34,048 bases of DNA from an uncultured Lentisphaerota bacterium (GTDB lineage: Bacteria > Verrucomicrobiota > Lentisphaeria > Oligosphaerales > CAJXKU01), in assembly GCA_913055945.1 (NCBI GenBank), contig CAJXKU010000003.1, forward strand, positions 1 to 34,048, given 5' to 3'. Below the pieces are notes generated by a model. That model worked only from the letters and a program-made list of their open reading frames with translations. It did no database searches and was not told the origin of the DNA. Both the position numbers and the translations under genes were made by a program. Shown here piece after piece: positions 11,534 to 34,048 of the stretch (positions are counted from its first letter, which is position 1; every line of letters begins with the position of its first letter).

Positions 11534-11591
11534 ATGTACGGATTTTTTAAATGGAGAACGCGTAAGCCCACTGATATCTGCGGAATAAAGT

Positions 11592-11641
11592 CTCATACGA
11601 GCCTTTTCCGCCGGACAATGTCCTGATACCCCCGTATGAGA
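11592..11641 (+). repeat. C-module repeat copy C1
   Basis: CTCATACGAGCCTTTTCCGCC GGAC-AAT-GTCC TGATACCCCC then GTATGAGACTCG. Confidence 0.7.
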
Positions 11642-11766
11642 CTCGCCGCCTTTGAGAATTCGGCAGACCGCCTAAAGGCGGTACTACAAACCTTCAGATA
11701 TCCAGGGAGACAATTGCTTGTAGTTCCGGCTTCAACCGGATCTTTACCCGGCGAGTCTCATACGAG
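11632..11766 (+). repeat. B-type module with terminal inverted repeats
   Basis: CCGTATGAGACTCGCCG ... CGGCGAGTCTCATACGAG; last 56 bp recur inverted at 33993-34048 with one mismatch. Confidence 0.85.
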
Positions 11767-17038: not shown

Positions 17039-17172
17039 GGATGATTCCGGCTACCAGGTTGCTCAGTATGGTGAGCTCTGGAAACTCGATCTTTCGGAGT
17101 ATTGCGTGCAGCATGACACATCGGCGCGCTCCGTGCGCCGCTCTGCACTGCGTGCAGGCATTGCATGCAGCG

Positions 17173-17263
17173 GACTGCGTCCAGCGTGACGATTACAGCA
17201 TGGATGCTTACGACATGCTGAATGCAATTCCTGAACGCAGTTTGACAGGCTGAACGCAGTTCC
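17173..17263 (+). repeat. A-module repeat copy A1
   Basis: gactgcgtccagcgtgacgattacagcatggatgcttacgacatgctgaatgcaattcctgaacgcagtttgacaggctgaacgcagttcc; near-identical to 19378-19487 and, inverted, to 33829-34002. Confidence 0.85.
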
Positions 17264-19207: not shown

Positions 19208-19257
19208 ACGCAGTTCTCATACGAGTCTGAGCGCCGGTGTAGCCACCGGACACCCCA
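19208..19257 (+). repeat. C-module repeat copy C2
   Basis: CTCATACGAGTCTGAGCG CCGGTG-TAGC-CACCGG ACACCCCA followed by GTATGAGACTCGG. Confidence 0.75.
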
Positions 19258-19383
19258 GTATGAGACTCGGCAGACATGCTGAAGCATGAACTCCGACGAG
19301 TCGATCGCGCGGTTTTGGCCCGTCAGAGTTCATACTTTAGTATGGTTTGGATTCATGCAGTCGCTGCATACCGAGTCTCATAC
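19258..19383 (+). repeat. B-module, 13-bp perfect terminal inverted repeats
   Basis: GTATGAGACTCGG (19258-19270) ... CCGAGTCTCATAC (19371-19383); inverted homologue at 25562-25685. Confidence 0.9.
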
Positions 19384-19487
19384 GAGGGACTGCGTCCAGC
19401 TTGACGCTTACAGCATGGATACTTACGACATGCTTAATGCAATTCCTGAACGCAGTTTGACAGGCTGAACGCAGTTCTCATACGAGC
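19378..19487 (+). repeat. A-module repeat copy A2 with CTCATACGAG at both ends
   Basis: CTCATACGAGGGACTGCGTCCAGC...CTGAACGCAGTTTGACAGGCTGAACGCAGTTCTCATACGAG. Confidence 0.9.
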
Positions 19488-19580
19488 CTGACCGCTGGCC
19501 ATAGTCCAGACACCCCTTACAAGAGACCAACTGCGGCATTGACGGTAAATACTGGCTCCACGCAGTGGTCTCATACGAGC
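19477..19580 (+). repeat. C3 module plus divergent B-like segment
   Basis: CTCATACGAGCCTGACCG CTGG-CCATAGT-CCAG ACACCCC, then GAGACCAACTGCGG...CCACGCAGTGGTCTCATACGAG. Confidence 0.7.
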
Positions 19581-19691
19581 CAAACCGCCGGGCGGCGCAA
19601 CCGCCCTGACACCCCGCGGCGAGACTTTGTCTCCGGTATGTTCCGGCCTTTTTGCGGTACACCTGTCTATGCACGCCGCCCGGCGGTTTGG
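19580..19691. repeat. Long inverted repeat beginning in C4 module
   Basis: CCAAACCGCCGGGCGGCG (19580-19597) and CGCCGCCCGGCGGTTTGG (19674-19691), 18 bp perfect. Confidence 0.85.
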
Positions 19692-25561: not shown

Positions 25562-25685
25562 GTATGAGACTCGGCACCGCGACTGCATGAATCCAAAGCA
25601 TACTGAAGTATGAACTCTGACCAGCCGAACCCGCGCTATCGCCTCGTAGGAGTTCATGCTTCAGCATGTCTTCCGAGTCTCATAC
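25562..25685 (-). repeat. B-module (inverted homologue of 19258-19383)
   Basis: GTATGAGACTCGG ... CCGAGTCTCATAC perfect 13-bp TIRs; interior shares ATGCTGAAGCATGAACTC and GTCAGAGTTCATACT blocks with the 19 kb copy. Confidence 0.9.
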
Positions 25686-25730
25686 CCTGGTGCCTGGGCG
25701 GCTCCGCCGCCCGGCGGGTTGGCTCGTATA
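25676..25730 (-). repeat. C-module repeat copy C5
   Basis: Reverse strand TATACGAGCCAACCCGCC GGGCGGC-GGA-GCCGCCC AGGCACCAGG GTATGAG. Confidence 0.7.
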
Positions 25731-33828: not shown

Positions 33829-33904
33829 AGGAATTGCATTCAGCATGTCGTAATGCATCCATGCTGTAATCGTCACGCTGGACGCAGTCCCTCGTATGAG
33901 AGAA
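33829..33904 (-). repeat. A-module repeat, truncated copy A3
   Basis: Reverse strand CTCATACGAGGGACTGCGTCCAGCGTGACGATTACAGCATGGATGCATTACGACATGCTGAATGCAATTCC. Confidence 0.85.
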
Positions 33905-34002
33905 CTGCGTTCAGCCTGTCAAACTGCGTTCAGGAATTACATTCAGCATGTCATAAGTATCCAGGCTGTAATCGTCACGCTGGACGCAGTCCCTCGTATG
34001 AG
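33897..34002 (-). repeat. A-module repeat, full copy A4
   Basis: Reverse strand CTCATACGAGGGACTGCGTCCAGCGTGACGATTACAGCCTGGATACTTATGACATGCTGAATGTAATTCCTGAACGCAGTTTGACAGGCTGAACGCAGTTCTC. Confidence 0.9.
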
Positions 34003-34048
34003 ACTCGCCGGGTAAAGATCCGGCTGAAGCCGGAACTACAAGCAATTG
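33993..34048 (-). repeat. Partial B-type module, inverted copy of 11711-11766, cut by window end
   Basis: 56 bp reverse-complement match with a single mismatch. Confidence 0.95.

Follow-up and report, generated by a model that had tools for sequence, protein, structure and literature searches.

Pneumococcal BOX elements are modular intergenic repeats built of interchangeable modules in variable number, and the hallmark of integron attC sites is a folded single-strand site with covarying arms. REP, REPIN and BIME repeats, which go with RAYT genes, consist of short palindromes between genes. Their 5' head is fixed, their loop short and their stem free in sequence but paired; they have a strand polarity and form inward-facing pairs. 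The S. maltophilia TnpA-REP cuts at a CT beside the REP. The head plays a part in this cleavage, and the enzyme cannot do without G as the first base of the loop; its activity is severely impaired when the loop is reverse-complemented, and a stem mismatch lowers or nearly eliminates cleavage (PMC8266576). Compensatory changes have been reported in REPINs, and it was proposed that more complex repeats are built from them (PMC3116915). Tagged palindromes that lack a dedicated transposase have a precedent in the CGTC-tagged palindromic repeats, mostly head-to-head dimers with 8-9 bp stems and 4-5 nt loops (PMC3733652). In Planctomycetes, Y1-associated structures of class 3 have a CnGA foot (PMC6006769).

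The window is the whole 34,048-nt stretch of DNA that we analysed, contig C3 of an assembly (3.39 Mb, 376 contigs, 87% complete) from an uncultured Lentisphaerota bacterium. Its genes are those of ordinary metabolism and signalling, and all repeats discussed here sit intergenically. They share the REP properties listed above, and GTAG REPs and RAYT genes are themselves present in this genome. Unlike REPs, the GCT hairpins described below have GCT in place of GTAG, a 4-bp stem, a single fixed GCA loop and no adjoining RAYT gene, the C-module has two stems and no REP head, and several families are fused in one mosaic. The fixed tag, the predominance of head-to-head dimers and the lack of a dedicated transposase recall the CGTC repeats; the GCT hairpins differ from these in tag, stem (4 bp) and loop (3 nt), and a CGTC tag directly at the stem was absent from their flank profiles. 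Like the class 3 structures, they are atypical and REP-like with a non-GTAG foot, but with GCT as this foot; no gene of class 3 was identified next to them.

A mosaic of intergenic palindromes joined at a common box

We found that the hairpins in the window belong to an extensive, lineage-specific mosaic of palindromes between genes, in which several REP-like hairpin families are joined at CTCATACGAG boxes. The families are GTAG REPs, 14-nt GCT mini-hairpins with a GCA loop, GAGTTC-headed hairpins and the two-stem C-module, which is one piece of this composite BIME-like mosaic. The following boxes (from the genome pattern count), GAGTTC-headed hairpins (from sequence and fold) and GTAG REPs (from the GTAG REP listing) lie in the window.

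11668..11687, minus strand: GTAG REP, CCGCC/GGCGG stem
11720..11739, plus strand: GTAG REP, CCGGC/ACCGG stem
11757..11766, plus strand: CTCATACGAG box, module junction
19275..19288, minus strand: hairpin CATGCT/AGCATG, inward GAGTTC head
19331..19344, plus strand: partner hairpin CATACT/AGTATG, inward GAGTTC head
19377..19386, plus strand: CTCATACGAG box, module junction
33891..33900, minus strand: CTCATACGAG box, module junction
33993..34002, minus strand: CTCATACGAG box, module junction
34020..34039, minus strand: GTAG REP, CCGGC/GCCGG stem

The box occurs 151 times in the 3.39-Mb assembly, compared with 3 times for the reversed control pattern. To its left we found GAACGCAGTTCT, TTAACGCAGTTAGT, CACGCAGTGGT, CAATGCAATTGT, TTTACCCGGCGAGT or GTCGCGGTACCGAGT, and to its right a C-module, a B unit (GGACTGCGTCC...) or unique DNA; a listing of genome copies showed left and right neighbours mixed. 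The interchangeable modules in variable number resemble those of BOX. To our knowledge the BOX modules are unrelated to the modules here. The partner hairpin at 19331 differs from that at 19275 by a paired change, and the 446-nt region as a whole folds better than shuffled sequence (z -4.9). The repeats also limit the assembly, because many contigs end inside them. An apparent enrichment of the box in two other genomes (G015 and G020) was rejected, the three G015 copies read being unrelated sequence. A pattern scan of genome contigs was too permissive, giving 78 scattered single chance matches, and two scans of viral contigs gave no match.

The GTAG REPs (78 in the genome and 0 in the control) carry the GTAG/GTGG sequence 5' of the palindrome by which REPs are recognised; GCT hairpins and C-modules do not. 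Their stems show paired changes (CCGCC/GGCGG, CCGGC/GCCGG, CCTAC/GTAGG and CCGAC/GTCGG). They form inverted pairs within box-bounded units, many of them in the same mosaic; those at 11668..11687 and 11720..11739 are such a pair, in a BIME/REPIN layout. GTAG REPs cluster around a 198-aa RAYT gene on contig C25 (NCBIfam NF047646, above cut-off), and GCT hairpins have no such position beside a RAYT gene. A second RAYT gene (C258) and an IS200-type TnpA gene (C51) are flanked by other palindromes. These Y1 loci contained no GCT hairpins, C-modules or boxes, with one hairpin elsewhere on C51.

The IS200-type TnpA locus (L201 960-1880) has near-identical GTAG-headed palindrome blocks on both sides (CCCCAGGC/GCCTGGGG and CCCAAGGTT/ACCTTGGG). 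An adenine-methyltransferase-like ORF on the minus strand of C26 (L202 2-3991), with weak PglX matches, contains an in-frame RAYT-like domain, and its in-frame peptide repeats (SSTGFQPV, SSTGIPAC and GKDACATF) look REP-derived. A prepilin encoded on C6 is a weak hint that the organism belongs to the PVC superphylum.

The C-module and its inner stem

The earlier note had described five C-module hairpins with different stems between constant flanks. We recovered all five stems in the window. Scores are from R1, a sequence-only model without base pairs, which is therefore unbiased toward pairing.

11590..11649, plus strand: C-module, GGAC/GTCC type, closed by CTCATACG/CGTATGAG (R1 47.7 bits, fold); inner hairpin of this copy (11592) CCGGAC-AAT-GTCCTG, GGAC/GTCC 4 bp with a mismatch below
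19215..19269, plus strand: C-module, CCGGTG/CACCGG type (R1 47.6 bits, fold); inner hairpin of this copy (19216) CCGGTG-TAGC-CACCGG, 6 bp
19476..19535, plus strand: C-module, CTGG/CCAG type (R1 56.4 bits); inner hairpin of this copy (19477) CTGG-CC-ATA-GT-CCAG, 4 bp plus an internal C.T mismatch
19568..19627, plus strand: C-module, GGGCGG/CCGCCC long-stem type (R1 38.7 bits); inner hairpin of this copy (19570) GGGCGG-CGCAA-CCGCCC
25675..25729, minus strand: C-module, GGGCGGC/GCCGCCC, diverged flanks (R1 19.2 bits, fold z -2.7); inner hairpin on the minus strand GGGCGGC-GGA-GCCGCCC

The flanks vary more than had been claimed. That of the 19216 copy reads CTCATACGAGTC, and the 25.7-kb copy has TATACGAGCC on the left and, on the right, GGCACCAGG in place of GACACCCC. 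Single C-modules such as 19477 fold no better than shuffled sequence.

The pattern CTCATACGAGN{15,45}AYMCCCC occurred 55 times genome-wide and 0 times in the control. Chance is excluded for the C-module family because of this count and that of the CTCATACGAG box. The R1 matches, strong and weak, numbered 89 and 92 in 1.24 Mb and in 48 further repeat loci; this sample covers roughly one third of the genome, with loci chosen for their repeats added. Of 69 C-modules, 65 lie outside ORFs of at least 150 aa.

We read the inner-stem arms at fixed offsets, which gave 45 distinct stems. Pairs were GC (29) and TA (6) at position 3; GC (30) and AT (10) at position 4; TA (9), CG (8), AT (8) and C.T (10) at position 5; and CG (20), GC (18) and AT (1) at position 6. 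Pairing at positions 3, 4, 5 and 6 was clearly above that in column shuffles. Here, as in the other statistics, each copy counts as independent; relatedness among copies is lessened, and not abolished, when identical sites are collapsed together with their flanks. Double changes at these positions separate about six subfamilies, and the types seen are GGAC/GTCC, CTGGAC/GTCCAG, GGTG/CACC, TACG/CGTA, CACG/CGT, CACA/TGT and the long GGGCGGC/GCCGCCC.

The strength of the signal depended on the class. In a set wider than the 31 cores below, 112 cells with 4-nt loops were paired compared with 94.2 after arm swapping (P<0.0005), a clear excess. With 3-nt loops, this set gave 110 paired cells, barely above the 107.2 with swapped arms (P=0.023), and the arms of the dominant type are almost interchangeable. 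Within the dominant subfamily (31 distinct 24-nt cores), native and arm-swapped energies were -3.50 and -3.49 kcal/mol (P=0.47), and many copies have broken inner stems. This little covariation and the many broken stems indicate that the C-module fold is kept at the level of subfamilies; in many members it is decaying or unneeded. The claim that pairing is kept while the stem changes thus holds between subfamilies and fails within the commonest one: the larger alignment contains paired changes (GC/TA at position 3, GC/AT at position 4, CG/GC/AT at position 6), almost none of them in that subfamily.

Among 390 genomes of the phylum, R1 had matches only in this genome (G000) and in one other (G002), which belongs to the same order and a different family. 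C-modules of G002, such as AGTCTCATACAAGCCCGGCCGCCGGCGCGAAGCGCCTGACACCCCGAGGGAGAGACT, retain GTCTC/GAGAC, ATACNAGCC and GAYACCCC, and have GGCGC/GCGCC as inner stem with a 3-nt loop. A diverged C-module with another paired stem in a different family argues that the fold outlasts the sequence. In both genomes, T/G (and A) stands opposite C at stem pair 2 (variants TCCTGA/TCCGGA and GCGCCTGA/GCGCCGGA). At some loci of G002 (L311-L323), C-modules alternate with an inverted-repeat unit of about 100 nt (GAGACTTGTTGAATGGTTTCTGGTGTCAGG...AAGTCTC) that is unrelated to GCT hairpins.

GCT mini-hairpins and B units

Sites of the form GCT-NNAY-GCA-RTNN adjoin C-modules. Those in the window are given below, with the mini-hairpins taken from the pattern listing and the B units from pair spacing or sequence matches.

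17158..17171, minus strand: GCT mini-hairpin, stem GCAT/ATGC, loop GCA
17172..17230, no strand: B unit, 59-nt inward GCT pair with a GGAC end and a GAAT end (pair spacing)
17249..17262, plus strand: GCT mini-hairpin, stem GAAC/GTTC
19387..19445, no strand: B unit, right hairpin imperfect, TAAT/ATTC (sequence matches)
19464..19477, plus strand: GCT mini-hairpin, stem GAAC/GTTC
19555..19568, plus strand: GCT mini-hairpin, stem CCAC/GTGG
33831..33890, no strand: B unit, 60 nt, with a GAAT end and a GGAC end (pair spacing)
33902..33915, minus strand: GCT mini-hairpin, stem GAAC/GTTC
33934..33992, no strand: B unit, left hairpin imperfect (sequence matches)

We found that these sites are mostly paired and that their stems vary. 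In 1.24 Mb, 158 of 195 sites were fully paired, compared with 42 of 575 with other heads; an unbiased 1.08-Mb sample gave 148 of 184. Counting distinct sites, 139 of 175 were paired, compared with 16.8 +/- 3.8 when arms were swapped (maximum 32 in 5000). The stems were GAAC, GGAC, TAAC, AAAC, CAAT, GCAT, GCAC, GAAT, CCAC, CAAC and CCAT, with GTAC once. All four pair types occur at position 1 (GC 97, CG 35, TA 16, AT 15); in the paired hairpins A-T holds position 3, and Y-R position 4, almost without exception. Each of at least 11 stems is found beside more than one 6-nt left flank (from 2 to 17 different ones). Covariation is far stronger here than in the C-module.

The loop has a polarity: 160 sites with loop GCA were paired, compared with 0 of 605 with loop TGC (GCT....TGC....). 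A CT follows within 4 nt in 117 of 158 hairpins, and one precedes all of them by definition of the pattern. The sequence GCTNNACGCAGT occurred 368 times genome-wide and 5 times in the control, and the other 59 genomes searched had at most 36. Its enrichment in G060 and G066, of the same class, was discarded as a multi-copy IS-like repeat (containing GCTAGACGCAGT or GCTCAACGCAGT), unpaired and unrelated.

As in REPINs, there are inverted repeats at a preferred short spacing. Of 57 inward-facing pairs, 35 have exactly 31 nt between heads, giving 59-nt units. The two ends of a unit usually carry different stems, and each hairpin therefore keeps its own pairing. The 91-nt region around the B unit at 17172..17230 matches 23 places in the genome, and among 48 genomes of the order no other contained the B unit. 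As short palindromes with a small loop in many intergenic copies, these repeats agree with the description of REPs, and the earlier note's comparison with REPs was apt: GTAG REPs lie in the same mosaic, the genome encodes a RAYT and the GCT hairpins covary. Elsewhere, TAACTGCGTTAAGC is repeated four times in tandem, 2 nt apart, at L251 14550-14698 (C21) and L244 4187-4335 (C14); the L251 array adjoins the apparent end of a tRNA gene.

Possible origins of the paired changes

Stem letters are free provided that they pair, strongly so in the GCT hairpins and between subfamilies in the C-module. Paired stem changes with a fixed loop and head suggest folded ssDNA as the form in which these repeats, like REPs, are kept or copied. 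Alongside the observed anatomy, covariation, polarity, spacing and lineage restriction, we lean towards a composite REP/REPIN-like system that may be kept or spread in this form, its stem free but paired; by analogy the agents are probably HUH (Y1) transposases. A nuclease would read head and loop on folded ssDNA, as TnpA-REP/RAYT (HUH, Y1) proteins do, the repeats would spread or be kept in that form, and the mosaic would result from subsequent duplication in tandem and from recombination between repeats at the boxes. Against this reading, the ORFs examined between clusters of C-modules or GCT hairpins were either ordinary genes or spurious short frames, with no Y1 or other transposase gene; the head is GCT, neither GTAG nor CGTC; the 4-bp stem is shorter than those of described REPs (5-13 bp, PMC3733652); the dominant C-module subfamily does not covary within itself; and neither an empty site nor an excised copy was seen.

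The earlier note had taken compensatory change to imply selection on folding. A conserved fold is supported by the larger alignment and by the second family of the order. However, five copies overstated the case, and covariation alone is no proof, since replication template switching (quasipalindrome correction) copies arm onto arm without selection on folding and can give multi-base compensatory changes (PMC8794818). This mechanism is established (see also PMC7202029), and the sequences are dense palindromes; we nevertheless think it an improbable source of the pattern. Switching across the loop should invert loops, and no TGC loop was paired; the preferences at positions 3 and 4 of the GCT stem mean that changes are restricted; and 4-bp arms seem, in our judgement, short for this process. 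It is also unlikely that the C-module is a structured RNA (an attenuator, mRNA stabiliser or small ribozyme-like motif), in which GTCTC/GAGAC would form the outer stem and ATACRAGCC/GAYACCCC a conserved internal loop, while the inner hairpin would be free. Loop letters kept across two families while the inner stem varies are usual for structured RNAs, and convergent sites are somewhat commoner than divergent ones (17 vs 7). But there was no Rfam match, a relaxed threshold giving only unconvincing ones, the module lies in either orientation to tandem neighbour genes (12 same, 19 opposite), and the inner stem is lost in many copies of the main subfamily. Many adjoining GCT stems also fail to fold as RNA, although energies of single mini-hairpins are weak and DNA and RNA are not firmly separable by them.

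Ordinary MITE-like dispersed repeats, in which covariation would be subfamily structure only and folding irrelevant, would account for much of the C-module signal, which lies between subfamilies whose stems go with their flanks. We consider this quite improbable given the GCT stems that recur on different left flanks and the pairing kept again in G002. The earlier comparison with attC fared worse: covarying arms are a shared trait, but an integron origin is very improbable indeed. The best integrase match scored 90.5 bits, below the IntI cut-off of 265, in an assembly that is 87% complete; weak matches were to general tyrosine recombinases and were given by all 14 control genomes too. The spacing of 50-100 nt has no space for cassettes, the units of 59-97 nt are without genes, and two recombinase loci that we read (L331 and L332) had no module.

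The folded-ssDNA, REP/REPIN-like reading bears on how REP-type repeats are recognised and spread. Possible, though doubtful, is a further step in which the GCT hairpins would be a third REP-like tag class, with GCT head and GCA triloop as the whole code, the 4-bp stem read mainly as a paired shape and a putative ssDNA nuclease as reader, beside an independent, fold-coded, cross-family two-stem C-module. The results also carry a caution, that covariation need not imply RNA. Hundreds of copies tell the fixed features (head, loop, closing pairs and strand) apart from those that need only pair, so that the genome serves as a mutational scan, which would be one of a likely ssDNA recognition code.
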